The notes under the pieces: model-generated
The model's database searches: none
Seen by the model: only the letters and a program-made list of their open reading frames with translations
What the model was told of the DNA's origin: nothing
Part shown: one piece after another, positions 15,727 through 58,991 of the stretch
Layout of the letters: the number at the start of each line of letters is the position of its first letter
Position numbering within the stretch: the stretch's first letter is position 1
NCBI RefSeq assembly: GCF_003428335.1
Contig: NZ_CP031704.1
Location: forward strand, 1,426,001-1,490,000
DNA: 64,000 bases
Source: Solimonas sp. K1W22B-7
GTDB lineage: Bacteria > Pseudomonadota > Gammaproteobacteria > Nevskiales > Nevskiaceae
Reading direction: 5' to 3'
Position numbers and translations under genes: made by a program

Positions 15727-17838
15727 ATGTCTGCCGATAGCCGCAACCCTGCTGCCTCCCGTACTGCCGGTTCCGCCGACCGCGAGCCGGCATGGTCACG
15801 CGACGCGGCCGGATACTCCGAGCGGCTCGGCACGTTCTTCCTGTCCGCCTTTCGCCTGTCGGCCCTGCCGATGGCGTTGCTGGATACCGATCGCCGCATC
15901 CTCCGCGTCAACGATGCCATGCTGGCCCTGCTGGGCGTGCCGGAACGCCTGCCGCAGGGGCGCAAGCTGGAAGAGCTGTTCGACGCCACCGACCGCGAGC
16001 CGATCCTGGCCGCCGCCAAGCTGCAGCTGGATTCGCGCGTCGAGGTGGACGTGCGCCTGCAGCTGGGCTCGCTGACGCGCCCGCATCGCCTGTTCCTGAG
16101 CCGTCCCGTCCCCGACGCCGGTTGCCTGGTTGCCGAGCTGCACGAGCGGCGCGGCGAGTCGGCGCTCACCGCCGGCGGCGCCGGCCAGGCCGGCTACGGC
16201 GCGATGGGCCTGTCGCTGATGCGCGAGGGCGTGATCGAGACCGACGAGCACGGCCTGGTGGTCGGCATGAACGACCGCGCCGAGGAACTCACCGGCTGGA
16301 GCCGTGCCCGCGCATTGGGCCAGTCGCATGAACGCGTATTGCGCCTGCTGTCGCCCGCCGGCGCTCCGCCGCGCAACCCGCTGCGCCTCTGTCTGCAGGG
16401 CGGCGCGGCGCGCATCTCCTCGGAACACCAGTCGCTGAGCCGCGATGGCCGTCACCTCAACCTGCGCTGCTCGGCCGGTGCGCTGCTGCGCCCCGACGGC
16501 GGCATCAGCGGCGCGGTGGTGGTGTTCGAGGACTACACGCGCATGAACCTGCTGTCGGAGGAGCTGGCCTACCGCAGCTCGCACGACCCGGTCACCGGCC
16601 TGCTCAACCGCGACGAGTTCGAGCGACGCGTCAACCTGGCGCTGAACCGCTCGCGCCGCCACGGCGTGGAGCACCTGCTGGGCTACATCGACCTGGACCA
16701 GTTCAAGGTGGTCAACGACGTCCACGGCCACTTCGCCGGCGACGAGATGCTGCGCCAGATTGCCGCGGTGTTCCGCGCCTCGCTGCGGCCGGAGGATGCG
16801 CTGGCGCGCCTGGGCGGGGACGAGTTCGGCGTGCTGCTGGAGGATACCGGCCTGGGTGAGGGCATGCCGCTGCTCGAAGGCATGCTCGAAGCCGCGCGCG
16901 GCAACCGCTTCGTCTGGGAAGGGCAGAGCTTCAGCACCACCGCCAGCATGGGCGCGGTGACGATCAATGCCCGCACGCCGGACAGCTCGCGCGTGATGTC
17001 GCTGGCCGACGCCGCCTGCTATGCCGCCAAGGACAGCGGCCGCAACCGCGTGCGCCTGGCCGAGGACGACGACGAGGCGGCGCGCCGCTACAACCAGATG
17101 AGCATGGTCAGCCGCATCAACCGCGCGCTGGACGAAAATCAGTTCAGCCTCTATTACGAGGATGTGGTGCGTGCCGACGCTCCGGGCGAAGTGGTCTATC
17201 GCGAACTGCTGCTGCGCATCCGCGGCCCCGGCGGCGAGATGCAGCCGCCGGCGGAGTTCATCGCCGCCGCCGAGCGCTACTACATGATGAGCGCGCTGGA
17301 CCGCTGGGTGGTGAACACGGCCCTGGACGGCATCGCCGGGCGCAAGGACGGCATCATCTACGCCATCAACATCTCCGGCCTGTCGCTGGGCGATCCCCGC
17401 TTCCTCGATTTCGTCGTCGAGCGCCTCCGCGAGTCCGGCGTGTCGCCGCTGCAGGTCTGCTTCGAGATCACCGAGACCGCCGCGATCACGCATCTGAGCG
17501 AGGCGCGCGCCTTCATCGAACGCCTGTCGGAAACCGGCTGCCGCTTCGCGCTGGACGACTTCGGCTCCGGCATGGCCTCGTTCTCCTACCTGCGCAACCT
17601 GCCGGTGCACTACATCAAGATCGACGGCAGCTTCGTGCGCTCGATGCAGGCCAACCGCCTGGACCGCGGCATGGTCGAGGCGATCAACCGCATCGGCCAC
17701 GACATGGGCCTCATCACCATCGCCGAGCATGTCGAGGACAACAGCCTGGTCGAGGCACTGCGCGGCATCGGCGTCGACTGGGTGCAGGGCCACGCGATCT
17801 CGGTGGCGCGGCCCTTCGACGAGTTGCTCGCCTCCTAG
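15727..17838 (+). CDS. Cytoplasmic PAS-PAS-GGDEF-EAL cyclic-di-GMP signalling protein
   Basis: Protein of 703 residues with no membrane segment. PAS-like regions occur at about 35-140 and 160-275 (VIETDEHGLVVGMNDRAEELTGWSR). The diguanylate cyclase domain has an intact GGDEF at 363-367 and an RPED inhibitory I-site five residues upstream. The EAL domain begins with Glu493-Leu-Leu in place of EAL but keeps the catalytic Glu, NISGLSLGD, EITETAAI, the DDFGSG loop and YIKIDG, so both domains could be active. The AGGAGG at 15705-15710 is 16 bases from the ATG, unusually far, so the start may be different. Its TAG stop is the first triplet of the repeat element downstream. Confidence 0.9.
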   Translation: MSADSRNPAASRTAGSADREPAWSRDAAGYSERLGTFFLSAFRLSALPMALLDTDRRILRVNDAMLALLGVPERLPQGRKLEELFDATDREPILAAAKLQLDSRVEVDVRLQLGSLTRPHRLFLSRPVPDAGCLVAELHERRGESALTAGGAGQAGYGAMGLSLMREGVIETDEHGLVVGMNDRAEELTGWSRARALGQSHERVLRLLSPAGAPPRNPLRLCLQGGAARISSEHQSLSRDGRHLNLRCSAGALLRPDGGISGAVVVFEDYTRMNLLSEELAYRSSHDPVTGLLNRDEFERRVNLALNRSRRHGVEHLLGYIDLDQFKVVNDVHGHFAGDEMLRQIAAVFRASLRPEDALARLGGDEFGVLLEDTGLGEGMPLLEGMLEAARGNRFVWEGQSFSTTASMGAVTINARTPDSSRVMSLADAACYAAKDSGRNRVRLAEDDDEAARRYNQMSMVSRINRALDENQFSLYYEDVVRADAPGEVVYRELLLRIRGPGGEMQPPAEFIAAAERYYMMSALDRWVVNTALDGIAGRKDGIIYAINISGLSLGDPRFLDFVVERLRESGVSPLQVCFEITETAAITHLSEARAFIERLSETGCRFALDDFGSGMASFSYLRNLPVHYIKIDGSFVRSMQANRLDRGMVEAINRIGHDMGLITIAEHVEDNSLVEALRGIGVDWVQGHAISVARPFDELLAS

Positions 17839-18103
17839 GGCCTGTCATCAATTCCCTGGTCGCTGCGACGGAGGCCGCCTGGGTGCAGGGCTATGCCCCG
17901 GGGCGCGCCGTGTACTCGAAGTACATCAGCGACTCGGGGCGACGCCCTGCGCCCAGGCGGCCCCGCCCTTCGGGTGCCCCCGTCTTTGCCGCCATGCCGT
18001 GTTGCTCGTCAGTCTCTTATTCCCGATAAGCGACCTCCTCGCGCCTTGCCTGGCGGCAAATACGGGGGCATCGCAGCGACCGGGGAATTGATGACAGGCC
18101 CTA
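17836..18103. mobile_element. Structured 268-bp terminal-inverted-repeat element (family S), copy A
   Basis: Outer arms TAGGGCCTGTCATCAATTCC and its complement at 18083-18103 pair. Inside are hairpin 1 (GGCCGCCTGGGTGCAGGGC with GCCCTGCGCCCAGGCGGCC), which encloses CCCCG/CGGGG and GTACTCGAAGTAC, and hairpin 2 (GCCCCCGTCTTTGCCGCC with GGCGGCAAATACGGGGGC), tipped by CTTATTCCCGATAAG. It encodes no protein. The ends are flanked by TA (also CTAG on both sides). Its terminal TAG triplets are the stop codons of both convergent neighbours. Copies B and C lie at 43318 and 58724. It could be a MITE-like transposable element or a structured RNA. Confidence 0.85.
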
Positions 18104-18667
18104 GGGCTTGAGCGCCGGCTGGTCCGGTACCTTGCCCTCGGTCAGCAGGGCACGCACCTCGGTCAGCAGCGTCATCCAGCTCTGCAGGTTGCGGATGCCG
18201 AAGCGCAGCGCGACGTAGACCAGCGCCTGCCGGCGGCTGGAGTTGCCGCTGCGGTCGAGATGCGAAGCCTCGAGCTGCAGGTACTCGTCCAGCTTGTCGC
18301 GGAATTGCGCAAGGTTGCGCTCCAGTTCCGCCAGCAGGGGCGCCGGGTCCGCCAGGTTGGCTGCATACAGGCGCATCAGGATCGCGCTGCTGATCCTTTC
18401 CGGCTTCCAGGCCGCCTCCAGCCAGCCTTTCAGCGAGGCACGGCCCTCCGGCGTGATGCGGTAGTGCTTGCGGTCGGGCCGCGAGGCCTGCTCCTGCAGT
18501 TCGAACTCCACCAGTCCTTCCTGCCCCAGAGCCTTCAGCTCCTGGTAGATCTGCTGGTGGGAAGCGCTCCAGAACTGGCCGATACCGCCGCGGAAGCGCT
18601 GTGCCAGGTCGTAGCCGGTGCCGGGCTTGCCTTCGAGCAGGACGAGGATGGCGTTCTTGAGGGACAT
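18101..18667 (-). CDS. PadR family transcriptional regulator
   Basis: Protein of 188 residues. The N-terminal winged helix (MSLKNAILVLLEGKPGTGYDL...FWSASHQQIYQELKALGQEGLV) has the PadR signature with conserved GYD and YxxLxxLxxxGLV. The C-terminal Vir-like helical domain (about 95-175) forms the dimer interface. I start at the ATG 18667 because the PadR domain begins there; the longer frame would run through the operator. It is divergent from a nitronate monooxygenase gene, and the intergenic region contains two mirrored palindromes, which is the expected layout for a self-repressing PadR that also controls its neighbour. Confidence 0.92.
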   Translation of the reverse strand: MSLKNAILVLLEGKPGTGYDLAQRFRGGIGQFWSASHQQIYQELKALGQEGLVEFELQEQASRPDRKHYRITPEGRASLKGWLEAAWKPERISSAILMRLYAANLADPAPLLAELERNLAQFRDKLDEYLQLEASHLDRSGNSSRRQALVYVALRFGIRNLQSWMTLLTEVRALLTEGKVPDQPALKP

Positions 18668-18690
18668 GGCGGGCTTCCGGGAATGGCCTG

Positions 18691-18749
18691 ATATGCAAGA
18701 TATTGCATATGATCGGCCCTTGTGCAAGGATATGCAATATCTTGCATAT
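18691..18749. promoter_or_regulatory. Twin PadR operators between padR and the nitronate monooxygenase gene
   Basis: ATATGCAAGATATTGCATAT (18691-18710) and ATATGCAATATCTTGCATAT (18730-18749) are each near-perfect palindromes and exact reverse complements of one another, with a 19-bp spacer. ATGCAA/TTGCAT half-sites fit PadR-type binding. The second site touches the monooxygenase start region. Assignment to the adjacent PadR is inferred from position. Confidence 0.82.
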
Positions 18750-18759
18750 GGAGAACGCC

Positions 18760-19725
18760 GTGGCCCTGCCTGCACAACTCAAGAACCGCCTGCGCCTGCC
18801 CGTGGTCGGCGCGCCTCTGTTCATCGTGTCCAACCCGGACCTGGTGATCGCGCAGTGCAAGGCCGGCATCATCGGCTCTTTCCCGGCGCTGAACGCGCGC
18901 CCGGCGGAACTGCTGGAGGTCTGGCTCAAGCGCATCAACGAGGAACTGGACGCCTGGAACCAGGCCAACCCGGACACGCCGGCCGCGCCCTACGCCGTGA
19001 ACCAGATCGTGCACAAGTCCAATGCGCGCCTGCAGCACGACCTTGAGGTCTGCGTGAAGTACAAGGTGCCGGTGGTGATCACCTCGCTGGGCGCGCGCCC
19101 CGAAGTCAACGAGGCGGTGCACTCCTACGGCGGCATCGTGCTGCACGACATCATCAACAACCATTTCGCGAAGAAGGCGATCGAGAAGGGCGCCGACGGC
19201 CTGATCGCGGTGGCTGCCGGCGCCGGCGGCCATGCCGGCACGCTGTCGCCCTTCGCCCTGATCCAGGAGATCCGCGAGTGGTTCGACGGGCCGCTGCTGC
19301 TGTCGGGCTCCATCGCCAACGGCAACGCCATCCTCGCCGCGCAGGCCATGGGCGCGGACCTGGCCTACATGGGTTCGGCGCTGATCGCCACGCGCGAAGC
19401 CAATGCCGATGAGCGCTACAAGCAGATGATCGTCGACTGCGGCGCCGACGACATCGTCTACTCCAATCTCTTCACCGGCGTGCACGGCAACTACCTGCGG
19501 CCCTCCATCGTCAACGCCGGGCTCAATCCGGATGCGCTGGAAAAGGGTAGTGCCAGCGACATGGATTTCGGCGCGGGTGAAGCGACCAAGTCGAAGGCCT
19601 GGAAGGACATCTGGGGCTGCGGCCAGGGGATCGGCGCGGTGAAGCAGATCGAGAGCGTGGAGATGCTGGTGTCGCGGTTGAAGCGGGAGTATGCGGGTGC
19701 GAGAGAGCGGCTGGCGGTCGCGTAG
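18760..19725 (+). CDS. Nitronate monooxygenase / 2-nitropropane dioxygenase family flavoprotein
   Basis: TIM-barrel FMN protein of about 321 residues. LPVVGAPLFIVSNPDLV at the start, the GAGGHAGTLS phosphate loop and LLLSGSIANGNAILAAQAMGADLAYMGSALIAT near the C-terminal half are typical. Family enzymes oxidise nitronates and related toxic carbanions to carbonyl compounds. GTG 18760 is chosen because GGAG lies six bases upstream and the protein then starts just before the conserved barrel strand; ATG 18748 would place the start inside an operator. Divergence from a PadR regulator suggests induction by an aromatic or nitro compound, which is inference. Confidence 0.88.
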   Translation: MALPAQLKNRLRLPVVGAPLFIVSNPDLVIAQCKAGIIGSFPALNARPAELLEVWLKRINEELDAWNQANPDTPAAPYAVNQIVHKSNARLQHDLEVCVKYKVPVVITSLGARPEVNEAVHSYGGIVLHDIINNHFAKKAIEKGADGLIAVAAGAGGHAGTLSPFALIQEIREWFDGPLLLSGSIANGNAILAAQAMGADLAYMGSALIATREANADERYKQMIVDCGADDIVYSNLFTGVHGNYLRPSIVNAGLNPDALEKGSASDMDFGAGEATKSKAWKDIWGCGQGIGAVKQIESVEMLVSRLKREYAGARERLAVA

Positions 19726-19735
19726 CGCAACCAAG

Positions 19736-19874
19736 TTGTCCCCTCTCCCGCTTGCGGGAGAGGGTGGCCGGAGGCCGGGAGAGGGTTTCTGTAAATCGTG
19801 CATGGACTAGCCCAGCTACGATTTACAGAAACCCTCTCCCTGTATCCCTCTCCCGCAAGCGGGAGAGGGGACAA
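19736..19874. repeat. CCTCTCCCGC palindromic element (family P), solo copy 1
   Basis: Left end TTGTCCCCTCTCCCGCTTGC and right end GCAAGCGGGAGAGGGGACAA are perfect inverted repeats; inner arms GAGAGGGTTTCTGTAAATCG and CGATTTACAGAAACCCTCTC also pair. The whole 139 bp can fold into one long hairpin. It lies between the convergent monooxygenase gene and mfd and may serve as a transcription end for both. Confidence 0.9.
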
Positions 19875-19886
19875 AGAAAGAAACGA

Positions 19887-22800
19887 CTACTTCAGCATCC
19901 CCATCGCCTTCAACAACATCTCCGCCCGCTCCTCCACCTTCTCCAGGTTGGCATACCAGTGCAGGCGCTTCTGTCCTTCCAGCTTCCAGTACTTGGGCTG
20001 GGTCTGGATCAGCCTGATCATCTTCACCGGGTCGATCGTCGTCTGCGGGCCGAAGTCGAAGGCGGCCGAGCGCGCGCCGGCGCGCAGGCGTGACAGGCCC
20101 AGGGCCTGGGCGGCGATGCGCAGGCGCGTGGCGTCGAACAGGCGCTCCGCCGCCGCGGGCAGCAGGCCGAAGCGGTCGATCATCTCCACCTTCAGCTCGT
20201 CCAGTTCGTCGTCGGTGGCGGCCTCGGCGATGCGCTTGTAGAGCGTCAGGCGCGCGTGCACGTCGGGGATGTAGTCGTCGGGGATCAGGGCTGAGGCGCC
20301 CAGGTCCACCTCGCAGTCGGAGCGGCCGAAGGGGCTGTCGTCGATCTTGCCGGAGCGGATCGCCTTGACCGCGCGCGCCAGCAGCTCGGCGTACATGGTG
20401 AAACCCACTTCCTCGATCTGGCCGGTCTGGTCCTCGCCCAGCAGCTCGCCGGCGCCGCGGATTTCAAGATCATGCGTGGCCAGCGCGAAGCCCGAGCCCA
20501 GGTCGCCCAGGGTCTCGATCGCGTCCAGGCGCTTTTGCGCGTCCACGCTGAGCGAGCGCTTGGACGGCACCATCAGGTAGGCATAGGCGCGGTGGTGCGA
20601 GCGGCCGACGCGGCCGCGCAGCTGGTGCAGCTGCGCCAGGCCCAGGGTGTCGGCGCGGTCGATGACGATGGTGTTGGCGGTCGGCACGTCGATGCCGGAT
20701 TCGATGATCGTGGTGCTGACCAGGATGTTGAAGCGCTGGTGGTAGAAATCCAGCATCACCTGTTCCAGATCGCGCTCGCGCATCTGGCCATGGGCGTAGC
20801 GCACGCGGCCTTCGGGCACCAGTTCCTGGATGTTGCGCGAGAACTGCTCGATGTCCTTGACCTCGTTGTGCAGGATGTAGACCTGTCCGCCGCGGCGCAG
20901 TTCGCGCAGGCAGGCTTCGTACACCAGCGTGTTGTTCCACTCGTGCACCGCGGTCTTGATGGCGATGCGCGAGGGCGGCGGCGTGGCGATGATGGACAGG
21001 TCGCGCAGGCCGGCCAGCGACATGTTGAGCGTGCGCGGGATCGGCGTGGCGGTGAGCGTCAGCAGGTCCACCTCGGCGCGCAGGTTCTTCAGCGTTTCCT
21101 TGTGGCGCACGCCAAAGCGATGCTCCTCGTCCACCACCACCAGGCCCAGGTTCTTGAACTTCACGTCGGCCTGCAGCAGACGGTGCGTGCCGATGACGAT
21201 GTCCAGCGCGCCGCTTTCCAGCTGCTTGAGCATCGCCGTCTGTTCCTTGCCGGTGCGCATGCGCGACAGGCTGGCGACGCGGATCGGCCAGCCGGCGAAG
21301 CGGTCGGAGAAGTTCTTGGCGTGCTGCTCGGCCAGCAGCGTGGTGGGCGCCAGCAGGCAGACCTGGCGGCCGGCGCGGGCGGCGGCGAAGCAGGCGCGCA
21401 GCGCCACCTCGGTCTTGCCGAAGCCGACGTCGCCGCAGACCACGCGGTCCATGGTCTTCTCGCTGCGCAGGTCGTCCAGCACGGCGTCGATCGCCTTCTG
21501 CTGGTCGTGCGTGGGCGTGAACGGGAAGCTCTCGCAGAAGCGCTCGTAATCGGCCTGGTCGAACTCCAGGGCCATGCCGGGCTTGGCGGCACGGCGCGCC
21601 TGGATCTGCAGCAGCTCGGCGGCGACGTCGGCAGCCTTCTCGCGCGCCTTGGCCTGCGCCTTGGCCCAGCGCTCCGAGCCCAGGGCGTGCAGCGGCGCCT
21701 TGTCGTCCTCGCTGCCGGTGTAGCGGTGGATCAGGTTCAGCGAGCCCACCGGCACGTAGCGCTTGCCGTCGGCGTACTCCAGCAGCAGGTACTCGGCGAC
21801 GATGCCGCCGGCGTCGAGCTTCTCCAGGCCGCGGTAGCGGCCCACGCCGTGCTGCACGTGCACCACCGGCGAGCCCAGCGACAGCGTGGAGAGATCGCGC
21901 AGGATGGTTTCCGGGTCGCGGATCCTGGCGCGGCCGCGGCGCGTGTGCATCGGCGTGCGGGCGCCGAACAGCTGCGCCTCGGACAGCACGGCGATGCTGT
22001 CGCCGGGAACGTGGAAACTGTCCTGCAGCGGGCCCAGCAGGATGCCGTAGCGCTTGGAGTCGGTGGCGAACTCGGCCCAGTCCTTGTACTCGCGCGGCAG
22101 GATGCCCAGGGGCTTGAGCCAGGCCAGCACGGCCTCGCGGCGACCGGGCGACTCGGCGATGAACAGCACACGCGCGGTGGCGGTCTTGAGCCAGGTGCGC
22201 AGTTCGTCGACGCCGGCGGGCAGGGCGTGGGCGTCGCTGCCGGGCTTGCGCACCTCGTACAGCGCCATCTCGCGCAGCGCCTGCTCGGGCTCCTGGTAGA
22301 GATCGGCCGGCTTCATCAGCGGCCGCTCGATGTCGCCGCGGTAGCGCTCGTAGCGCTCCTCGATCTGCTGCCAGTCGGTCTGCAGCGCCTGCTCCATGTC
22401 GGCGACCGGCGCCAGCATGGCGCCCGGCGGCAGGTAGTCGAGCAGGCCGTGGGTGTGGTTGAAGAACAGCGGCAGGTAGGACTCGATACCGCCCGGCATC
22501 AGCTTGCGGCTGACCTCGGAGTAGATCTGCGAACGCGCCGGATCGCCGGGGAAGTATTCGCGGTAGCGCCGGCGGAAGGTCTCGATGCCCTCGCGGTCGG
22601 TGGGGAACTCGCGCGCCGGCAGCAGGCGGATCTCGTCGACCTTGTCGAGGCTGCGCTGGGTTTCCGGGTCGAAGCTGCGGATCGTTTCGATCTCGTCGTC
22701 GAACAGGTCGATGCGGAAGGCGGTGTTGCTGCCCATGGGGAACAGGTCCACCAAGGCGCCGCGCACGGCGAACTCGCCCTGGGTCTGCACCTCGGACACC

Positions 22801-23228
22801 GACTGGTAGCCGGAGGCGACCAGGCGCTCGCGGAAGGCGTGAGGATCGAGCTTGTCGCCCAGGCCGAGCTGGAAGCTGCGCCCGGACAGCCAGTCGCGCG
22901 GCGGCAGGCGGTGGATCAGGGCGTCGGCGGTGACCAGCAGCAGGCCGCGGCCCAGCTGCGGCAGCCGCGCCAGCGCGCGCAGGCGATCCGACAGGATCTC
23001 CTGGTGCGGCGAGAACTGGTCGTAGGGCAGGATCTCGGTATCGGGCAGGTGCACCAGCGGCAGGCGGCCGGCGAGGAAGAAGCGCAGGTCTTCCTCCAGG
23101 CGGTGGGCCTGCTGCTCGTTGCCGGCCAGCACGACCACCGGGGCATCGTGGGCCAGCGCCAGCTCCACGGCGGCCAGCGCCGTGGCGGCGCCGGTGAGCG
23201 GGGTCTGTGGGGGTGAATCAGGGGTCAT
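19887..23228 (-). CDS. mfd: Transcription-repair coupling factor Mfd
   Basis: ATPase of 1113 residues that removes stalled RNA polymerase and recruits UvrA. In order: the UvrB-homology N-terminal region (residues about 1-320), the RNA-polymerase-interaction domain with the YLLLEYADGKRYVPVGSLNLIHRY segment (about 470-510), the translocase with Walker A GDVGFGKTEVA and Walker B VVVDEEHRFGV, LTATPIPRTLNMS, and the RecG-like motif QLHQLRGRVGRSHHRAYAYL. The C-terminal TRCF domain follows. Length is normal (E. coli about 1148). Monocistronic appearance; ends 13 bp from the family-P palindrome. Confidence 0.97.
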   Translation of the reverse strand: MTPDSPPQTPLTGAATALAAVELALAHDAPVVVLAGNEQQAHRLEEDLRFFLAGRLPLVHLPDTEILPYDQFSPHQEILSDRLRALARLPQLGRGLLLVTADALIHRLPPRDWLSGRSFQLGLGDKLDPHAFRERLVASGYQSVSEVQTQGEFAVRGALVDLFPMGSNTAFRIDLFDDEIETIRSFDPETQRSLDKVDEIRLLPAREFPTDREGIETFRRRYREYFPGDPARSQIYSEVSRKLMPGGIESYLPLFFNHTHGLLDYLPPGAMLAPVADMEQALQTDWQQIEERYERYRGDIERPLMKPADLYQEPEQALREMALYEVRKPGSDAHALPAGVDELRTWLKTATARVLFIAESPGRREAVLAWLKPLGILPREYKDWAEFATDSKRYGILLGPLQDSFHVPGDSIAVLSEAQLFGARTPMHTRRGRARIRDPETILRDLSTLSLGSPVVHVQHGVGRYRGLEKLDAGGIVAEYLLLEYADGKRYVPVGSLNLIHRYTGSEDDKAPLHALGSERWAKAQAKAREKAADVAAELLQIQARRAAKPGMALEFDQADYERFCESFPFTPTHDQQKAIDAVLDDLRSEKTMDRVVCGDVGFGKTEVALRACFAAARAGRQVCLLAPTTLLAEQHAKNFSDRFAGWPIRVASLSRMRTGKEQTAMLKQLESGALDIVIGTHRLLQADVKFKNLGLVVVDEEHRFGVRHKETLKNLRAEVDLLTLTATPIPRTLNMSLAGLRDLSIIATPPPSRIAIKTAVHEWNNTLVYEACLRELRRGGQVYILHNEVKDIEQFSRNIQELVPEGRVRYAHGQMRERDLEQVMLDFYHQRFNILVSTTIIESGIDVPTANTIVIDRADTLGLAQLHQLRGRVGRSHHRAYAYLMVPSKRSLSVDAQKRLDAIETLGDLGSGFALATHDLEIRGAGELLGEDQTGQIEEVGFTMYAELLARAVKAIRSGKIDDSPFGRSDCEVDLGASALIPDDYIPDVHARLTLYKRIAEAATDDELDELKVEMIDRFGLLPAAAERLFDATRLRIAAQALGLSRLRAGARSAAFDFGPQTTIDPVKMIRLIQTQPKYWKLEGQKRLHWYANLEKVEERAEMLLKAMGMLK

Positions 23229-23292
23229 GCAGCGTTTTCGACCACGGGCGCCGCCAGGGGTGCGGCCTAGCCGGCGATTATCTCACGCGGCC

Positions 23293-23538: not shown

Positions 23539-25369
<1,831 letters not shown>

Positions 25370-25373
<4 letters not shown>

Positions 25374-43317: not shown

Positions 43318-43583
43318 GGGGTCTGTTGACACTATGAACGTCGCTGCGACGGAGACCGTTTTGGCGCAGGGCTAAATTCCGAGGCGCGCCATGTACTGGA
43401 CGTACATCAGCGACTCGGGATGACGCCCTGCGCCAAAACGGTCCCGCCCTCCGGGTGCCCCCGGATTTGCGGCCATGCTGCGTTGCTCGTCGGTTACTTA
43501 TTCCCGATAAGCTTCCTCCTCGCGCCTTGCCTGGCCGCAAATCTGGGGGCATCGCAGCGACGTTCATAGCGTCAACAGACCCC
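43318..43583. mobile_element. Structured 266-bp terminal-inverted-repeat element (family S), copy B
   Basis: Outer arms GGGGTCTGTTGACACTATGA and its complement ending at 43583 pair. Hairpin 1 is GACCGTTTTGGCGCAGGGC with GCCCTGCGCCAAAACGGTC, and hairpin 2 is GCCCCCGGATTTGCGGCC with GGCCGCAAATCTGGGGGC, tipped by CTTATTCCCGATAAG. Most stem differences from copies A and C are matched on both sides. It occupies nearly the whole intergenic region between the divergent mobA and hemD starts. No terminal TA here. Confidence 0.85.
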
Positions 43584-51563: not shown

Positions 51564-51598
51564 GCTGCCTCGCCCTAATTTGGTTGCGATCAAAAAGA

Positions 51599-51614
51599 AG
51601 CAATCATCGTGCCA
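51599..51614 (-). promoter_or_regulatory. Sigma-54 promoter of the nirBD-nasA operon
   Basis: Minus-strand TGGCACGATGATTGCT matches the -24/-12 consensus TGGCACRNNNNTTGCW at every fixed position. The predicted transcript start is about 25 nt upstream of the nirB ATG. Further upstream, GGTGCACC (51665-51672) and AGTGCACCG (about 51706-51714) resemble NtrC half-sites at enhancer distance; that part is tentative. Confidence 0.85.
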
Positions 51615-51728
51615 CTTATAAGTTATTGATTCTTCGTTAATAACTCGTTTTGTCTACCCATGTTGGTGCACCGGCCTCCTGGCAACTGCGCTGCCCTGGA
51701 GCGCCAGTGCACCGCCATTGCACGGCAA

Positions 51729-52550
51729 TCAGCCCACTGCCAGTGCAAGCGGGGCGCCACCGTGGCCGCGTTCTGCGCCGCCGTGGTGCAGGAAACGCAG
51801 GATCGCGGCGCAGCTGCGGTGGTACTCCGAGTCCTCCGCCAGCTTCAGGCGTTGCCGCGGGCGTGGCAGTTTCACGTCCAGGATTTCGCCGATGGTGGCG
51901 GCGGGGCCGTTGGTCATCATCACGACGCGGTCGGACAGCAGCACCGCCTCGTCGACGTCATGGGTGACCATGACCACGGTGCAGCGCAGCTTGGACTGGA
52001 TCTCCATCAGCGAGTCCTGCAGGTTGGCGCGGGTCAGGGCATCGAGCGCGCCGAAGGGCTCGTCCATCAGCAGCACCTTGGGCTCCATGGCCAGCGCGCG
52101 GGCGATGCCGACGCGCTGCTTCATGCCGCCCGACAGTTCGTGCGGGCGCTTGTCGTGGGCCTTGCCCAGGCCCACCAGGTCCAGCGCCGCCTCGGTGCGG
52201 CTGCGCAGCTGCGCGCTCGTCTCGGTGGCGCCGAAGACCCGCTCGACCGCCAGGTGGATGTTGCCGTAGGCGGTGAGCCAGGGCAGCAGCGAATGGTTCT
52301 GGAACACCACGGCGCGTTCCGGGCCGGGGCCGGCGACCTCGCGGCCGTTGAGCACCACGCCGCCGGTGGTGGGTTCCACCAGGCCGGCGATCAGGTTCAG
52401 CACCGTGGACTTGCCGCAGCCCGAGTGGCCGATGAGCGAGACGAACTCGCCTTCGCTGACCTTGAAGTTGACGTTGTCCAGGGCGCGGAAGACGCCGCGC
52501 GGGGTACGGAATTCGACCGAGGTGTGGTCGACTTGCAGGTAAGGGGTCAT
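51729..52550 (-). CDS. Nitrate ABC transporter ATPase (NrtD type)
   Basis: ATPase of 273 residues: Walker [11 protein letters not shown]-loop [11 protein letters not shown], signature LSGGMKQR, Walker [18 protein letters not shown]-loop [14 protein letters not shown]. The NrtC/NrtD/SsuB type is supported by [10 protein letters not shown]. Last gene of the porin-nrt unit, working with the permease at 52645 and binding protein at 53552. Confidence 0.93.
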
Positions 52551-52580
52551 GGATGAACTCCGTTGGGATCCGAGGCCTGT

Positions 52581-52636
52581 GCGGAAGCCGGCTCTCCGAG
52601 GAAAGGAGAGGGGATCGCCGGCGAGCCGGCTTCCGC
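52581..52636. repeat. Palindrome between the nrt permease and ATPase genes
   Basis: GCGGAAGCCGGCTC (52581-52594) and GAGCCGGCTTCCGC (52623-52636) form a perfect 14-bp stem around a 28-nt loop. REP-like; may protect the upstream porin-nrtAB mRNA and lower nrtD expression. Confidence 0.7.
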
Positions 52637-52644
52637 AGGGCTTT

Positions 52645-53538
52645 TCATTGATGGCGGTAGTCGAAGCGCTGGGCCAGCTTGCCCATCCCGGCTTCGAGGG
52701 CGAGACCCACCGAGCCGATGACGATGATGGCGATGATGATGTGGCTCATGTTGAGGTTGTTCCACTCATCCCAGACCCAGAAGCCGATGCCGACGCCACC
52801 GGTAAGCATTTCGCTGGCCACGATCACCAGCCAGGCGATGCCCAGCGCCAGCTTGGCGCCGGTCAGCACATAGGGCACGGTGGCCGGCAGCAGGATCTTG
52901 GTGAAGATCTTCCACTCCGACAGCTGCAGCACGCGGGCCACGTTCATGTAGTCCTGCGGCAGCGCGGCGACGCCCATCGCGGTGTTGAGGATCATCGGCC
53001 AGATGCTGCAGATGAAGATCACGAAGATCGCCGCCGGGTCCGCCGCCTTGAACACCGCCAGGCCGATCGGCAGCCAGGCCAGCGGCGACACCGGCCGCAG
53101 CAGGCTGATGACCGGGTTGAAGGCCTTGCTCAGCAGCGAGAAGCGACCCAGCAGGAAGCCCAGCGGGATGCCCACCAGCGCCGCCAGCCCGAAGCCCAGG
53201 GCCACGCGCCCCAGCGACTTCAGCACGTTCCAGCCGATCCCCATGTCGTTCGGTCCGTTGATGTAGAACGGATGCGAGAACAGTTCGACAGCGGCCAGGA
53301 AGGTGGCGCCCGGCCCGGGGAGGTAGTCGGAAAACGTGGACACCAGCGCCCAAACCCCGACCAGCACCGACAGGCCGATGGTGGGCGGCAGCGCCGCCTT
53401 GCCGGCGGCCACCAGGCCTGCCGCGATGCGGGAGGCGAGGCTGACCTTGGGCTCGGGGGCGATGGGTGTGTTGGCGGCAGCGGGGGCGGTGGTCACGGTA
53501 TCGGGCTCCACGCTTTGCAGGCGTATGGCGGCGCTCAT
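52645..53538 (-). CDS. Nitrate ABC transporter permease (NrtB type)
   Basis: Permease of 297 residues with an N-terminal cytoplasmic segment of about 35 residues, then five to six helices and the coupling loop [45 protein letters not shown], characteristic of NrtB/SsuC. Uses the ATPase encoded after the palindrome. Starts 13 bp after nrtA. Confidence 0.93.
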
Positions 53539-53551
53539 GGGAATCTCCGGA

Positions 53552-54826
53552 TCAGGCCTTGATGGCGAAGCCGCTGGCGTAGGCGGCCGCCTTCGAGGGG
53601 TCGAAGACGGTGCCGTCGAACAGGGTTTCGGTCTTCAGCGGGTTGGTCGGCACGGCGACGCCGAGGGACTTCGCGGCATCGGTGTAGAGCTCGATCTGGT
53701 TGATCTGCTTCGCCACGCCGACGTAGTCGATGTCCTGCTTGAGCAGGCCCCAGCGGCGGTGCTGGGTCAGGAACCAGGCGCCATGCGACAGGTAGGGGAA
53801 GTTGACCTCGCCGTCCATGAAGAACTTCATGTAGTCCGGGTCCTGCCAGGTCTTGCCCAGGCCGTCCTCGTACTTGCCCTGCATGCGGCCGAGGATGACC
53901 GGCGGCGGCGCGTTGACGTAGGACTTGCCGCCGATGATCTCCGAGACCTTGGCGCGGTTGGCCATGGCGTCGATGTGCTTGGAGGCTTCCAGCACCGCGC
54001 AGATCATCGCCTTGGCGGTGTTGGGGTACTTGGTCACGAACTCCTTGGTCGTGCCCAGCACCTTCTCCGGGTGGTTCTTCCAGATGCCCTGGGTGGTGGT
54101 GGCGGTGAAGCCGATCTTGTCGAAGACGGCGCGCGCGTTCCAGGGTTCGCCGACGCAGTAGCCGTCCATGTTGCCGACGCGCATGTTGGCGACCATCTGC
54201 GGCGGCGGGATGACGATGGTCTTGACGTCCTGCATCGGGTCGATGCCGTGGGCCGACAGCCAGTAGTACAGCCACATGGCGTGCGTGCCGGTGGGGAAGG
54301 TCTGGGCGAAGGTGTACTCGCGCTTCTTCTGCGCCACCAGCTTCTTCAGCGATTCGCCGGTGGTCGCGCCCTCTTCCTTGAGCTTGTTGGACAGCGTGAT
54401 GGCCTGGCCGTTGTAGTTGAGGTTCATCAGCACGGCCATGTCCTTCTTCGGCCCGCCGATACCCAGGTGCACGCCGTAGACCAGGCCGTAGAGCACGTGG
54501 GCCGCGTCGAGCTGGCCGAGCACCAGCTTGTCGCGCACCGCCGCCCAGCTGGCTTCCTTGGACACGGTGACGTTGAGGCCGTACTTCTTGAACAGGCCCA
54601 GTTCCGAGGCCATCACCACGCTGGCGCAGTCGGTCAGCGGAATGAAGCCGATCGTGAGATCGGGCTTCTCGATCGGGCCGATGCCGGCGGCGCTGGCGGA
54701 TGTCGGCAGGGTCATCGCGCCGCCGGCCACCACGCCGGCGGCGGCCATCAGCGAGTGCCTCAGGAAGTCGCGGCGCGACAGTTCCGCGCTGTTCAGGCCC
54801 GCGGCGGCTTTTTCAATCGGGTTCAT
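53552..54826 (-). CDS. Nitrate-binding protein NrtA, Tat-exported
   Basis: Protein of 424 residues with a twin-arginine signal (SRRDFLRHSLMAAAGVVAGGAM) followed by the NrtA fold: LTIGFIPLTDCASVVMASELGLFKKYGLNVTVSKEASWAAVRDKLVLGQLDAAHVL and VGNMDGYCVGEPWNARAV, containing the conserved Trp, Gly and acidic residues of the nitrate site. Delivers nitrate to the NrtB/NrtD permease. A cytoplasmic NasS sensor is homologous, but the Tat signal makes this one a periplasmic transporter component. Confidence 0.93.
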   Translation of the reverse strand: MNPIEKAAAGLNSAELSRRDFLRHSLMAAAGVVAGGAMTLPTSASAAGIGPIEKPDLTIGFIPLTDCASVVMASELGLFKKYGLNVTVSKEASWAAVRDKLVLGQLDAAHVLYGLVYGVHLGIGGPKKDMAVLMNLNYNGQAITLSNKLKEEGATTGESLKKLVAQKKREYTFAQTFPTGTHAMWLYYWLSAHGIDPMQDVKTIVIPPPQMVANMRVGNMDGYCVGEPWNARAVFDKIGFTATTTQGIWKNHPEKVLGTTKEFVTKYPNTAKAMICAVLEASKHIDAMANRAKVSEIIGGKSYVNAPPPVILGRMQGKYEDGLGKTWQDPDYMKFFMDGEVNFPYLSHGAWFLTQHRRWGLLKQDIDYVGVAKQINQIELYTDAAKSLGVAVPTNPLKTETLFDGTVFDPSKAAAYASGFAIKA

Positions 54827-54858
54827 AGGTTCTCTCCTTGAATTCGGGTCGGCGGCGA

Positions 54859-56217
54859 TCAGAACTTGTATTCGATCCAGGCCCAGTACTTGCTCACGTC
54901 GTCGCGGATCGGCGAGGTGGCGGCCACCGGCGCATCGGAATCACCGGAGTAGCTCGCATACTTCAAGCCAATGCCGAGCTGATCGGTGAGCGGGCGGGTC
55001 GCCATCAGGTCGAACTCGTCGCCGTAGTCGTCGCCGCCCTCGTCGGCGCTGAACTGGTGGTAGACCGCGGTGAGCACGACCTTTTCCACGGTGGCGCTGG
55101 CCTGGAGGTAGAGGCGCTCGAGACCGGTGGCGGGCGTGGTCAGGAACATGTCGGCCCAGCCGTCATGCGCATGCATCGTCGCCAGCGGAGTCTGGAAGCC
55201 GTAGGTGCCGTCGCCGCCGAGCACTTCGTAGCCGAGCTTGAGTCCGAACACCTTGTAGCTGGCGCCCAGTTCAGCCAGCGTGTAGCTCGCATCGACGGTA
55301 TCCGGCGCGTCGGCGTAGTCGCTCTGGTCGGCGTATTCCAGTGCATAGCTCAGGTTGAAGTCCTGCACCGGAACGGTGCCGGTGACGCGCAGGCCGATCG
55401 TCTGGCTGTCGCCGGTCGGGTTGCCCGGCGCGATCGGCGCGGGTGCGCCCGCTGCCGCGGCGGCGGCGACGACCGGGTTGGTGTCGAAGTCGAGCAGGTA
55501 GCCGTAGGCCGTCAAGGCCAGTGCCTTGTACGGTGCGAAGGCGAAGTTGACCAGGTGACCGTCGATGCCGCGGTTGGGGCTCAGGTCGGGAGCGACGCCG
55601 GTGTTGGAATGGTTGAAGACGCGGAACGCGTAGACATTCCTGATGTAGGCATAGTTGAGCGTGGTCTTGGGCAGGAAGGCGTTGGTGAGCAGGACGCCGT
55701 CATAAGTCTGCTCGTGCTGGCGCCAGCCGACGTTGCCGATGAAGCGGGCGTTGTCGAAGATGATGCGCTGGCGACCGACCTTCAACGTGGTCTTGGCCGG
55801 AGCGGCATAGCGGAGCCAGGCCTGGTTGATCTCGCTGGTTTCCGGATCGGCGACCACCGGGTAAGCCGCACGGCGGTTGCCCTGGTTGTTGTCGGTGCCG
55901 TTGAAGTTGTCCTTGCCGAGCACGGTGACGTTCTCGAATTCCAGCTGCGCATCGACGTTGTTCCACTTGCCGGTGGTGTAGCCGAGGCGACTGCGCAGTG
56001 TGGTCGCACTGGCCTTCTCGGTGATGGTTGCCGGCAGTTCCTGGTCTACGTTCTCGTAGCGCAGGCGCATGTCGAGATTCGGCGCGCCGCCAGAGATGGC
56101 GTACGGCAGGTTCTCGAGCGGATCGGCGCTGGCGATCATCGGAAGGCCCAGGTTGGCGATGGCCAGGGCCATCAAGGTTTTTTGGACAAACGAGTCCCTG
56201 CTGCTGCGACGCTGCAT
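54859..56217 (-). CDS. Outer-membrane channel protein (alginate-export-like porin) of the nitrate cluster
   Basis: Protein of 452 residues: a signal peptide (about 1-32), then amphipathic beta strands such as LDMRLRYENVDQ, TTLRSRLGYTTGKWNNVDAQLEFENV and TTLKVGRQRIIFDNARFIGN, ending in a terminal strand KYWAWIEYKF with the C-terminal Phe that BAM recognises. The RLGYTTGKW and GRQRI blocks match the alginate-export/DUF family of porins often located next to nrtABC. Probably admits nitrate to the periplasm. First gene of the unit; its leader carries an intrinsic terminator. Confidence 0.85.
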   Translation of the reverse strand: MQRRSSRDSFVQKTLMALAIANLGLPMIASADPLENLPYAISGGAPNLDMRLRYENVDQELPATITEKASATTLRSRLGYTTGKWNNVDAQLEFENVTVLGKDNFNGTDNNQGNRRAAYPVVADPETSEINQAWLRYAAPAKTTLKVGRQRIIFDNARFIGNVGWRQHEQTYDGVLLTNAFLPKTTLNYAYIRNVYAFRVFNHSNTGVAPDLSPNRGIDGHLVNFAFAPYKALALTAYGYLLDFDTNPVVAAAAAAGAPAPIAPGNPTGDSQTIGLRVTGTVPVQDFNLSYALEYADQSDYADAPDTVDASYTLAELGASYKVFGLKLGYEVLGGDGTYGFQTPLATMHAHDGWADMFLTTPATGLERLYLQASATVEKVVLTAVYHQFSADEGGDDYGDEFDLMATRPLTDQLGIGLKYASYSGDSDAPVAATSPIRDDVSKYWAWIEYKF

Positions 56218-56262
56218 GATTAAAGTCCCCAATGACGGTGTGGTCGGCGTTGACCGGAAAAT

Positions 56263-56299
56263 AAAAAAGGCGCCTGCACGGTTTCCCCGTACAGGCGCC
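56263..56299 (-). terminator. Leader terminator upstream of the porin-nrt unit (putative NasT attenuator)
   Basis: Minus-strand GGCGCCTGTACGG-GGAAA-CCGTGCAGGCGCC followed by TTTTTT: a 13-bp stem with a U-tract, 46 bp upstream of the porin ATG and about 80 nt downstream of the predicted sigma-54 start. Immediately before it is a small hairpin, ACCC-AAGGGC-GGGT (about 56335-56348), with a six-base loop with A first and G fourth, as ANTAR proteins prefer. It may equally terminate nasT; both roles can coexist. Confidence 0.8.
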
Positions 56300-56390
56300 A
56301 TTGCCCGAATCGATTTAGATGGTGATGTCTCGGCAGACCCGCCCTTGGGTTGGCGCCTCGCGGCGCCGCCTCGACACTTGTTTCTATACG

Positions 56391-56406
56391 AGCAAGTGCC
56401 GTGCCA
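56391..56406 (-). promoter_or_regulatory. Sigma-54 promoter of the porin-nrtABD unit
   Basis: Minus-strand TGGCACGGCACTTGCT matches TGGCACRNNNNTTGCW at every fixed position. It lies in the short nasT-porin gap, so transcription would begin near 56380 and run through the terminator-bearing leader. Confidence 0.88.
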
Positions 56407-56429
56407 ACTCTTCGGTCAGGTCTTGTCTG

Positions 56430-56990
56430 TCATGCTTTGCCGAGGATGCCGCGTGCCACTTCGACCAGTTTGGTGCTGGACTCCATCGCCATGCGCTGCA
56501 TGCGTCGGTAGGCACCGGCTTCGCCGAGGCCCTCGCGCTCCATCATGCGGCACTTGGCGAGATCGACGATGCGGCGCTCCTCCATGTGCTGGCGCGCCGT
56601 TTCCAGGTCGCGCTGCAGCTGGCGCGTACCATTGAAGTGCGCCACCGCGGTTTCCACCAGCGAGCGCGCGGCGATGGGCGACAGCTGCGGCACGACGTAG
56701 AAGCTGACGCCGGCGACAGCGGCTTCGCGGATCATGTCGTAGTCGGCATTGGCGGCGAACATCACCATCGGCTTCGGCGTGTTGCGCGCAATCAGTGCGA
56801 GATGCTCCAGCGTGTCGCGCGCCGGGGAATCGGCGGAAATGACGATGGCGTCAGGCTGCAGTTCGCGCGTGTGCTTGTAGATGTCCGAGGTTCCGGAAAT
56901 GAACCCCAATACCTCGAAGCCCGCTTCGACCAATACTTCTTCCAGAGCCGTGACCTGCTCTGGGCGTGTGTCGACTACCAGTACTCTCAT
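56430..56990 (-). CDS. nasT: NasT-type ANTAR response regulator (transcription antiterminator)
   Basis: Protein of 186 residues. The N-terminal receiver-like domain (MRVLVVDTRPEQVTALEEVLVEAGFEVLG, DAIVISADSPARDTLEHL) has an Asp in the SADSP position. The C-terminal ANTAR domain (RRIVDLAKCRMMEREGLGEAGAYRRMQRMAMESSTKLVEVARGIL) binds paired RNA hairpins and prevents termination. In Azotobacter and Pseudomonas NasT activates nas genes when nitrate releases it from NasS. No nasS lies beside it here. Located between narK and the porin gene. Confidence 0.92.
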   Translation of the reverse strand: MRVLVVDTRPEQVTALEEVLVEAGFEVLGFISGTSDIYKHTRELQPDAIVISADSPARDTLEHLALIARNTPKPMVMFAANADYDMIREAAVAGVSFYVVPQLSPIAARSLVETAVAHFNGTRQLQRDLETARQHMEERRIVDLAKCRMMEREGLGEAGAYRRMQRMAMESSTKLVEVARGILGKA

Positions 56991-57081
56991 TGGGTCAGCG
57001 CGACGTTGCGCATTCCTGTTCTATTCCTGCGGGACCGTACGCCGTTGCACGGTCCGGTAATTTCTAGCTCTCTGCGCCCAC

Positions 57082-57129
57082 AAAAAAGGGCGCATGAATC
57101 GCTGCTCGCAAGAACAGCGCCATGCGCCC
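57082..57129 (-). terminator. Intrinsic terminator after narK
   Basis: Minus-strand GGGGCGCATGGCGCTG ... CAGCG-AT-TCATGCGCCC followed by TTTTTTG, starting 17 bp after the narK stop. It separates narK from nasT, implying either a nasT promoter in 56991-57080 or partial read-through. Confidence 0.8.
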
Positions 57130-57145
57130 CGGTTACGGACGGGTG

Positions 57146-58513
57146 CTAGGCCGGCTGCGGCTCCCCGGAGGGGGCGCCGGCGGCCTTGGCGGCAGCGCGG
57201 GCAGCGAGCGCTTCCTGGTAGAGCTTCTCTTCGCTGGACTTGTGCTCGGGGCTGAAGCGCACCGCGATGGCGCAGACCGCGGCCACCGTCACGCAGATGC
57301 CGAGGATGTGCAGGGTGGTCTGCGCATCGCCGGTGCCCTTCATCAGGAAGCCCGCGGCCACCGCGCCGACGTTGCCGCCCGCGCCGATGATGCCGGCCAC
57401 GCCACCGAGGGCCTTGCGGTCGATGAACGGCACCAGGGCGTAGGTCGCGCCGCAGGCCATGTGGGTGAACAGGCCGAAGGTGATCATGGCGACGATCGCC
57501 ATGCCGACGCTCTGCATCGAGGCGAACCACAGCAGGCCGAGGCCCTCGCCGACGATCAGGACGAACAGCAGCGTGGTGCGGCCGTCGAGACCCTTGGTCT
57601 TGGCGACCTTGTCGGAGATGATGCCGCCGAGCGCGCGGGCGAACAGGGCCAGCAGGCCGAAGCTGCCGGCGGCCAGGCCCGCGCTCTTGAGGTCGAGCTT
57701 GAACTGGTCGACGTAGTACAGCGCGGCCATGTTGTGGATGAAGATTTCCACGCCGAAGCAGGCGCCGTAGGTGACGAACAGCAGCCAGACGCGGTAGTTG
57801 GCGCAGGCCTGCTTGAAGCTGGCCCAGCCGCCGCCCTTGCCGCCGGTGATCTCGATGCCCTTGGCGCGGAGTTCCTGGAAGTTGCCCTCCGGGCAGTCCT
57901 GCGTATAGCGCCAGTACATCACCGCCATGATCAGCATCAGCACGCCGGGGACGATCATCGACACGCGCCAGCCCAGGGTCTTCTCGACGCCGAAGCTCAG
58001 CACTGCCGCCAGCACCAGCGGCATCACCGTCTGGGTCACGCCGCCGCCGGAGTTGCCCCAGCCGGCCGCCGCCGCATTGGCGGTGCCGACCACGTTGGGC
58101 GCGAACATCACCGAGGTGTGGTACTGGGTGATGACGAAGCTGGCGCCGATCGCACCGATGCACAGGCGGAAGAACAGGAAGGCTTCATAGCTCTTGGCGA
58201 AGGCCACGCCGAGCACCGGGATGGCACCCACCAGCAGCAGGCCGGTGTAGGCCTTGCGCGGGCCGAACTTGTCGCACAGCGGGCCGATGATCAGGCGGAT
58301 GATGATCGTCACCGCCACCGCCGCAATGTTGATGTTGGCGATCTGGTCCTTGGTCAGGCCGAACTCGCCCTTGATCACCGGCATCAGCGGCGCGATGGCG
58401 AACCATGCGAAGAAGCAGACGAAGAAGGCCATCCAGGTCAGGTGGAAGGCGCGCATCTGCGGGGTGTTGAAGCTGAAGAGGTTGATGCGTGTGGCTTTTG
58501 CTGAGGCAATCAT
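57146..58513 (-). CDS. Nitrate/nitrite transporter of the NarK/NasA major facilitator type
   Basis: Twelve-helix MFS protein of 455 residues with both nitrate signature motifs: GWGNSGGGVTQ in helix 5 and GAGGNVGAVAAGF in helix 11, plus RLIIGPLCDKFGPRKAYTGLL as the MFS A-motif and the conserved Arg for substrate binding. ATG 58513 is chosen because an upstream ATG (58558) lies inside a sigma-54 promoter and would be upstream of the transcription start. A second nitrate uptake route beside the ABC system. Confidence 0.93.
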   Translation of the reverse strand: MIASAKATRINLFSFNTPQMRAFHLTWMAFFVCFFAWFAIAPLMPVIKGEFGLTKDQIANINIAAVAVTIIIRLIIGPLCDKFGPRKAYTGLLLVGAIPVLGVAFAKSYEAFLFFRLCIGAIGASFVITQYHTSVMFAPNVVGTANAAAAGWGNSGGGVTQTVMPLVLAAVLSFGVEKTLGWRVSMIVPGVLMLIMAVMYWRYTQDCPEGNFQELRAKGIEITGGKGGGWASFKQACANYRVWLLFVTYGACFGVEIFIHNMAALYYVDQFKLDLKSAGLAAGSFGLLALFARALGGIISDKVAKTKGLDGRTTLLFVLIVGEGLGLLWFASMQSVGMAIVAMITFGLFTHMACGATYALVPFIDRKALGGVAGIIGAGGNVGAVAAGFLMKGTGDAQTTLHILGICVTVAAVCAIAVRFSPEHKSSEEKLYQEALAARAAAKAAGAPSGEPQPA

Positions 58514-58546
58514 GGCGGGCTCAATGCGAGGTTTGCACCGGCTTGA

Positions 58547-58562
58547 CGCAATGCTCATGCCA
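58547..58562 (-). promoter_or_regulatory. Sigma-54 promoter of narK
   Basis: Minus-strand TGGCATGAGCATTGCG, differing from TGGCACRNNNNTTGCW at two outer positions only, with GG and GC invariant pairs kept. Predicted transcription start about 58535, upstream of the ATG at 58513. Confidence 0.75.
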
Positions 58563-58723
58563 ACAGTGGATCGTCGTTCGGAGCTCTTTCTTTTTCAATT
58601 GAAAACAATGGCATGGGGTGCGGCGGCGACTTTTTGTCCGGCCCCCGGCGCGCTTTTGGGGCGCACCGCCCGAGTGCGTGGCGGAAGCATCCCGGTGCAA
58701 ACCACGTACGGCGAATGCCTCTT
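58563..58723. other. narK upstream region, no gene
   Basis: Non-coding. Contains AT-rich TTTTTCAATTGAAAAC (58591-58606) and GC-rich stretches with GCGCACCGCCCGAGTGCG, which loosely resembles an NtrC dyad. It ends at family-S copy C. Together with that element the gap to the next gene is about 425 bp. Confidence 0.4.
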
Positions 58724-58991
58724 TAGGGCCTGTTGACGCTACCGCGACCGCTGCGACGGAGGCCGCCTGGGTGCAGGGCTATGCCCCGAGGCGCGCCGTG
58801 TACTAGATGTACATCAGCGACTCGGGGCGACGCCCTGCGCCCAGGCGGCCCCGCCCTCCGGGTGCCCCCGTCTTTGCCGCCATGCTGTGTTGCTCGTCAG
58901 TTACTTGGAACCACCAAGCGCCTTCCTCGCGTCGTGCCTGGCGGCAAATACGGGGGCATCGCAGCGATCGCGGTAGTGTCAACAGGCCCTA
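58724..58991. mobile_element. Structured 268-bp terminal-inverted-repeat element (family S), copy C
   Basis: Outer arms TAGGGCCTGTTGACGCTACC and GTAGTGTCAACAGGCCCTA pair. Hairpin 1 is as in copy A, and its inner loop is GTACTAGATGTAC. Hairpin 2 is GCCCCCGTCTTTGCCGCC with GGCGGCAAATACGGGGGC, but its tip has changed from CTTAT/ATAAG to CTTGG-AACCA-CCAAG with pairing kept. TA flanks both ends. Its right terminal triplet is the stop codon of the DUF2721 gene. Confidence 0.85.

Follow-up and report, generated by a model that had tools for sequence, protein, structure and literature searches.

Hairpin-forming repeats with covarying stems in Solimonas sp. K1W22B-7: probable non-autonomous mobile elements with ends of IS5-family type

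Insertion sequences (ISs) of the IS427 group of the IS5 family have been described in Paracoccus, where they measure 832-865 bp, carry inverted repeats of 13-21 bp and, in some members, two overlapping open reading frames (ORFs), and are flanked by a 2-bp direct repeat in all cases seen but one (PMC3281130, in the part of the text available). A miniature inverted-repeat transposable element (MITE) with a TA target and ends matching those of an IS, IS630-Spn1, is known as RUP in Streptococcus pneumoniae (PMC2229807, likewise as far as the accessible part describes it). The subject here is a stretch of 64,000 bp from Solimonas sp. K1W22B-7 (NZ_CP031704.1, positions 1,426,001 to 1,490,000; hereafter the window) that contains three copies, A, B, and C, of an element with two hairpins between long inverted arms. 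These elements are probably non-autonomous and MITE-like, mobilized by an IS5-family transposase acting in trans, with their base pairing maintained at the level of DNA and with a core that is a predicted protein site.

The body of the element is 264 bp long in all three copies and is made up of outer arms of 33 bp enclosing, in this order, hairpin 1, a tiny stem-loop (CCC..GGG), and hairpin 2 with its apical stem. The initial annotation had reported three copies with this layout and with substitutions that change both sides of a stem together, and they were recovered at the same positions (Table 1); one extra G/C pair beyond the body of copy B gave rise to the earlier bounds of 43318-43583. 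Folded as single-stranded DNA (ssDNA), copies A, B, and C have energies of -120.7, -114.0, and -121.1 kcal/mol, with z values of -16.7, -17.1, and -16.0, and none of the 200 shuffles made per copy was as low.

Using copy A in a blastn search of the 5.37-Mb genome, 70 matching places were obtained, the best 30 of which were taken as loci. With a length of 264 bp, 33-bp arms and about 30 loci in this genome, the family has the MITE traits of short size, terminal inverted repeats, and many copies. An alignment of 24 full-length genome copies with almost no gaps (A1) was made after exclusion of L013 (other arms), L023 and L024 (inserts), and L026, L029, and L030 (partial matches). RNAalifold predicted 102 pairs in A1, 37 of them with two-sided change. 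As many as 98.9 % of 2446 cells were paired, while shuffles averaged 90.8 % and none of 500 was as high; two-sided changed cells numbered 214 versus 69 in shuffles, and one-sided changed cells 36. The claim that the stems are maintained through paired change was thus borne out, and the doubt that the changes might be alignment errors was removed, as sliding the 3' partners by 1-3 columns made the paired fraction drop to 35-41 %.

The shuffles of A1 ignore the relatedness of the copies, and mutual information of the variable columns was compared for that reason. Its normalised value was 0.87 for paired columns, and for unpaired columns 0.48 at distances of 1-5 bp and 0.16-0.29 farther apart. 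The left and right outer arms, which are paired over a distance of 240 bp, gave 0.82, whereas the left arm and the neighbouring hairpin 1 gave just 0.17, which indicates that modules have been shuffled among the copies, yet arms at opposite ends have stayed matched in these 24 copies. At least six arm types occur; hairpin 1 and the apical stem each come in two main types, and these are found together in all four possible ways.

Paired change of this kind might arise without any structural selection if one arm is copied onto the other by conversion or by replication template switching, a process known as quasi-palindrome correction. The variable pairs do mostly jump between Watson-Crick states (214 two-sided cells to 36 one-sided ones), the modules are mixed among copies, and in locus L013 both arms have been replaced alike. 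The history of copy B also fits. Its locus is common to G050, a genome of the same genus (86 % identity over 1701 bp), and B is absent from the locus in G048 and G049. Between the copy B orthologs, the outer arms are identical and most of the differences in the two hairpins fall into matching blocks; as the blocks in G050 resemble other family copies, conversion is possible. Paired blocks may be spread from copy to copy by gene conversion with no selection involved, a point that weighs against structural selection as the cause of the pairing. Copying alone is nevertheless considered unlikely: the asymmetric core bases of the hairpin unit are conserved across genera, although correction should symmetrise them (the core was demanded in the loci taken from the core scan described below), and elements with two hairpins keep a length of about 265-275 bp across genera.

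The two hairpins proved to be related to each other. A second alignment (A2) of 44 hairpin-unit sequences was drawn from 187 matches in 53 clusters; two with CCTAGAAACGGCAGTTGA-type ends, two of a tandem array, and five judged truncated, degraded, or redundant were excluded. Two-sided change was found in 20 of its 25 pairs, with up to six standard pair types per pair, and 92.7 % of 1089 cells were paired, a value reached by none of 500 shuffles. The covariance model made from A2 (R1) matched hairpin 1 on the opposite strand in all three window copies, at 43.5-52.6 bits, and in 23 of 23 loci that had been chosen as two-hairpin elements. Four of the 44 rows of the model are of the hairpin-1 type, three of them from the 23 loci, which leaves 20 of 20 loci independent of the model. 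Because the hairpins are near-palindromic, hairpin 2 alone can match its own reverse strand, at 21-34 bits and thus below the hairpin-1 scores. Hairpin 1 repeats hairpin 2 in inverted orientation, and the element as a whole is an inverted pair of one unit in which neither strand is special.

A covariance model of the three copies and a search of the whole genome and of related genomes had been proposed in the initial annotation, and the matches of R1 extend well beyond the genome of the window. At E <= 1e-5 with a shortened calibration, R1 matched 86 of 369 genomes sampled from the class (70 of 272 genera) and 76 of 398 sampled from the phylum, 49 of the latter outside the class. A survey at the family level gave a match in 35 of 58 genomes and 10 of 12 genera, and in 40 stretches picked from relatives, the architecture recurred wholly or in part with stems of different sequence. 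When named genomes were scanned for the hairpin-2 core, at least 120 stretches were obtained; their core conservation is by construction, because the scan demanded the core. Among the matches listed, carriers included Alcanivorax, Alloalcanivorax, Salinicola, Microbulbifer, Hydrocarboniphaga, Chromatiales, Nitrococcus, Zetaproteobacteria, Burkholderiaceae, Nitrosospira, and metagenome-assembled genomes (MAGs) labelled Bacteroidota. Copy A had no match in the plasmid and phage collections.

Strong covariation together with fixed internal-loop bases resembles an RNA motif, and transcripts of known MITEs fold and can regulate mRNAs (PMC2229807, in the part available). The family could accordingly represent a structured non-coding RNA or an mRNA processing element that has been spread by transposition and whose pairing is selected in the transcript. 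The kinds of mismatch bear on this reading. The variable basal stem was counted in 148 distinct hairpins (150 aligned, the best of 173 matches in 94 chosen loci): G-T occupied 29 and A-C 67 of 1550 cells, the A-C excess being owed partly to two columns with a possibly misaligned group. The outer arms of A1 gave 13 G-T and 10 A-C in 744 cells. A tRNA control from the same loci gave 22 G-T versus 0 A-C in 373 cells, but it is small (17 tRNAs) and its finder favours pairs, which tells against leaning on it for DNA-level pairing. So does the slight lean toward RNA over all of A1, where, excluding columns with G-T as the commonest state, 25 G-T stand against 15 A-C. At core positions of the hairpin, G-T fills 179 of 591 cells; these barely vary and may not be pairs. 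As there is no clear excess of G-T over A-C, pairing in DNA is favoured over pairing in RNA, and the mismatch counts and the inverted build together lean that way. Moreover, Rfam gave no match at the gathering score in the window and, around copy A, only sub-threshold matches of microRNA type (E up to 5), and no promoter or terminator was found by pattern at copy A. An RNA function is therefore regarded as rather improbable. In the favoured reading, the whole element, with its outer arms and two inverted hairpin units, would be built for intrastrand pairing of DNA, and this pairing would be held by selection for a hairpin or cruciform, by arm-to-arm copying in replication, or by both.

TA stands at both borders of 19 out of 27 near-complete elements in the genome, in every one of the 19 as part of YTAR. 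The alternative of a 4-bp target repeat, CTAG, was abandoned, since some copies have TTA on their left and TAA on their right. Among the 54 flanks of the 27 copies, a gene ends toward the element in 24 and starts away from it in 28, two being ambiguous, as judged from a codon score trained on 22 ORFs of the window; the ends of L013 were mis-set in this count, which leaves the 15 shared stops below unaffected. In 15 of the 24 genes that end toward the element, the stop codon consists of TA and the element's own G. Because TA followed by the terminal G of the element reads TAG, insertion into a stop codon would restore a stop at both borders, and this is the precise position of many copies; at copy A, both convergent genes end in a TAG made by the element. 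The preference for stop codons may simply reflect a scarcity of YTAR in the rest of GC-rich DNA. In the relatives G049 and G050, the left-hand gene at the copy A site ends in TAA. In G048 (L302), its stop is TAG, and after it comes a short GC-rich palindrome with a start like that of the element, TAGGGCCTGCCCGCGCCGCCGGCGGGCCC, which is either a remnant or a chance palindrome.

Candidate partners were found in relatives, where IS5-family ISs (PF13340 and DDE_Tnp_1; NF033580) of 804-856 bp carry ends that match those of the elements. This was so in four of the five genomes in which IS ends were found, in two of them with rarer end variants and in one by way of the element of a genus-mate. G179 has five ISs of 807-808 bp with ends GGGCGTGTTAACACTAAT, and its co-resident elements end in GGGCCTGTTAACACTAT, 15 of the first 16 bp being in agreement; the IS ORFs are DUF4096 and DDE_Tnp_1 and belong to the IS5 family by NF033580, each half scoring just below the whole-protein cut-off. 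G050 contains one IS of 804 bp, with ends GGGCCTGTTAACACTAAC and GGGCACGTTAACACTAAC, which agree at 16 of 16 bp at one end and 14 of 16 at the other; one of its ORFs exceeds the NF033580 cut-off. The 822-bp ISs of G334 have GGTTCTGTTGACGTTTC and an element there GGCTCTGTTGACGTTTAC (15 of 16). In G228, an IS of 856 bp has GGGCGTGTTGCCGTTTC at one end, and the element of its genus-mate G336 has GGGCCTGTTGCCGTTTCG; the two agree at 16 of 17 bp at one end and 15 of 17 at the other. When five IS ends were compared with 11 element ends, the ISs of G334 and G228 fitted best to the element of their own genus (15 of 16, the others at most 13). A Tc1/IS630 origin, the first guess from the TA borders, was dropped in favour of IS5/IS427 upon finding the element of G179. 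The partner ISs are IS427-like, a placement made from traits and not from a tree: they measure about 0.8 kb, have domains of IS4/5 type and a 2-bp repeat and, in G179 and G050, where this was checked, contain two overlapping ORFs.

A structured RNA, a cruciform, and a MITE recognised by a transposase had all been suggested for the element in the initial annotation. The last of these is the best fit, given the terminal repeats, the TA borders, and the matching IS5-family ends in relatives, and the structured RNA is not favoured. A parental transposon with the same ends, which the initial annotation proposed to look for, was not found in the genome of the window, related ISs being found in relatives only; no full-length parent of 0.7-2.5 kb with these ends was present among the matches listed by a pattern scan of the genome (57 and 55) or in the fetched loci. 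As matching ends suggest, an IS427-like transposase of the IS5 family, supplied in trans, would read about 16-17 bp at each end and insert the element at YTAR with duplication of TA.

A number of observations weigh against mobilization by such a transposase. Copy B and seven other copies lack TA on both sides, and no exact empty site was found, the flanks in relatives having diverged. PF13340 and NF033580 profile searches of the window's genome gave no match. PF13340 matched in seven of 24 picked carrier genomes, leaving 17 without; five of the seven were over the cut-off, and IS ends were found in two of these five, while G078, G269, and G410, each over the cut-off, yielded none. The commoner element type of G334, which makes up most of the end matches listed, fits the ISs of that genome at 7 of 16 bp, the element found in G228 itself agrees poorly with the IS there (11 of 16), and the five 838-bp ISs of G380 have ends unrelated to the element (8 of 16). 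As GGGCCTGTTAACAC ends are common in many genomes, the matches in G179 and G050 tell less. The end searches demanded TA outside, and this requirement accounts in part for the TA borders of the ISs.

In the fetched loci, 92 of 118 inverted pairs of GGGCCTGTT-type ends (some loci overlapping) span 260-285 bp, seven 57 bp (arms only), and eight 174-189 bp; the rest measure 244-418 bp, apart from two pairs of 1400 bp, which represent one pair of neighbouring elements seen in two loci. Those two elements (G000:C1:4239003-4240402; L004, L014) differ in arm type and are spaced by about 0.9 kb. The common core is also enclosed by ends that look unrelated by eye, namely GGGCCTGTTNACAC, AAGGAAACACTGATTGATTC, AAGGGCTCGTAAATGAATA, AGTGTGGTGTCTCACAAATA, and CCTAGAAACGGCAGTTGACC, and AGAGCCTRTCYGTGAATAAATC, AGGCCTGTTATCAGTTTCC, and other ends have a few terminal bases in common with GGGCCTGTTNACAC. 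The hairpin unit thus appears, judging its surroundings by eye, to sit in elements with at least five kinds of terminal repeats that look unrelated. From this recurrence, the bases of the unit that stay fixed while the stems change may be a protein recognition site that aids spread or persistence. A bolder and more tentative proposal, which we consider possible but somewhat doubtful, is that the unit is a portable DNA module whose hairpin or cruciform structure would be recognised by a widespread bacterial protein, and which would have been acquired by five or more MITE lineages with unrelated-looking ends across Pseudomonadota (possibly also in the Bacteroidota MAGs), giving them persistence or mobility whichever transposase moves them.

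Fixed unpaired bases in a hairpin with free stems also resemble the logic of attC sites. The family might then be an ssDNA recombination element, attC-like or a hairpin recognised by an HUH/Y1 enzyme, and be moved by a hairpin-specific recombinase instead of a DDE transposase. That the unit is found between ends of several kinds, and also as a tandem array, would suit such an element. The array (L251, NZ_JXQM01000013.1 of Nitrosospira sp. NpAV) consists of hairpin units spaced at about 95 bp without the usual ends, with seven R1 matches and eight core strings. Against this stand the TA borders and the IS5-like ends, which suit a DDE transposase (no search was made for a linked recombinase gene), and recombination of this type is considered very improbable.

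Several variants were also encountered. In the genome of the window, L013 (1476-1744) is of near-normal length (269 bp), has both arms swapped for another mutually matching sequence, and lacks TA. Hairpins of 57 bp composed of arms only lie, in the same genome, in L032 (775-831), L033 (814-870), L034 (791-847), L035 (803-859), L036 (769-825), L051 (2453-2509), and L052 (276-332); their arms also show paired variation, and they look like an element that lost, or never gained, its core. L031 (G000:C1:58227-58361), which is outside A1, is an element of 135 bp with ends of two different arm types and a middle formed by another palindrome, of the GTGGGAGCGGCTTTAGCCGCGA type, which we take to be like repetitive extragenic palindromes (REPs). 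The hairpins of L023, L024, and L056 are interrupted by a second palindrome, about 50 bp long (core GCGACATYGAGTCGC), of which L023 has two forms; its outer stems also differ pairwise (GCCATTGGC/GCCAATGGC and GCCGATGGC/GCCATCGGC).

Table 1. Positions of the three element copies, their parts, and adjoining genes in the window
Feature	Position	Strand	Remarks
Copy A, whole element including TA at both ends	17836..18103	+	Body 17838-18101; TA at 17836-17837 and 18102-18103
Copy A, left outer arm (terminal inverted repeat)	17838..17868	+	Pairs with 18071-18101
Copy A, right outer arm	18071..18101	+	
Copy A, hairpin 1	17861..17972	-	Match to hairpin-unit model R1, 43.5 bits
Copy A, hairpin 2	17969..18078	+	R1 match, 106.5 bits
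Copy B, whole element, without TA at ends	43319..43582	+	
Copy B, hairpin 1	43342..43453	-	R1, 52.6 bits
Copy B, hairpin 2	43450..43559	+	R1, 113.7 bits
Copy C, whole element including TA at both ends	58724..58991	+	Body 58726-58989; TA at 58724-58725 and 58990-58991
Copy C, hairpin 1	58749..58860	-	R1, 48.7 bits
Copy C, hairpin 2	58857..58966	+	R1, 103.7 bits
GGDEF/EAL gene	15727..17838	+	TAG stop is left end of copy A
PadR-like regulator gene	18101..18775	-	TAG stop is right end of copy A
DUF2721 gene	58989..59414	-	TAG stop is right end of copy C

Covariation that extends over a phylum in mobile DNA looks unlike ordinary RNA covariation here, and it is a warning that covariation by itself is no proof of a functional RNA. 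The family offers a way to study why bacterial mobile DNA keeps its shape, as it is intergenic and apparently gene-free and its sequence changes while the ability to fold back is kept. Its many sequence pairs could be used to test whether MITEs are shaped by hairpin DNA or by arm-to-arm copying. Since rarer end variants match IS5-family ISs from the same genus, how MITEs switch from one transposase to another can also be tested directly.

No published description of the family was found in limited searches of the open-access literature, which included strings from its ends and core. The ISs of relatives are closely similar to those of the IS427 group and have ends matching the elements, whereas the element itself differs from that group in having no transposase and in its structured core. 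RUP, with its TA target and its IS-matched ends, is a MITE of comparable design that differs in the IS family concerned and, as described in the accessible part of the source, has no covarying double hairpin (PMC2229807). The CIR repeats of Caulobacter and Brucella likewise consist of two long stem-loops and a linker, with a conserved motif, and are common to several species; compared by description in the same partial source, they differ in their size of about 110 bp and in their two unpaired ends, and the CIR motif GANTC is present in only some of the copies studied here (PMC2229807). ERIC/IRU, Correia/NEMIS, and YPAL are intergenic palindromic repeats as well, with TA ends in ERIC and Correia/NEMIS, and, going by what that part of the source says of them, they are set apart from the present family by their smaller size and their other hosts (PMC2229807).

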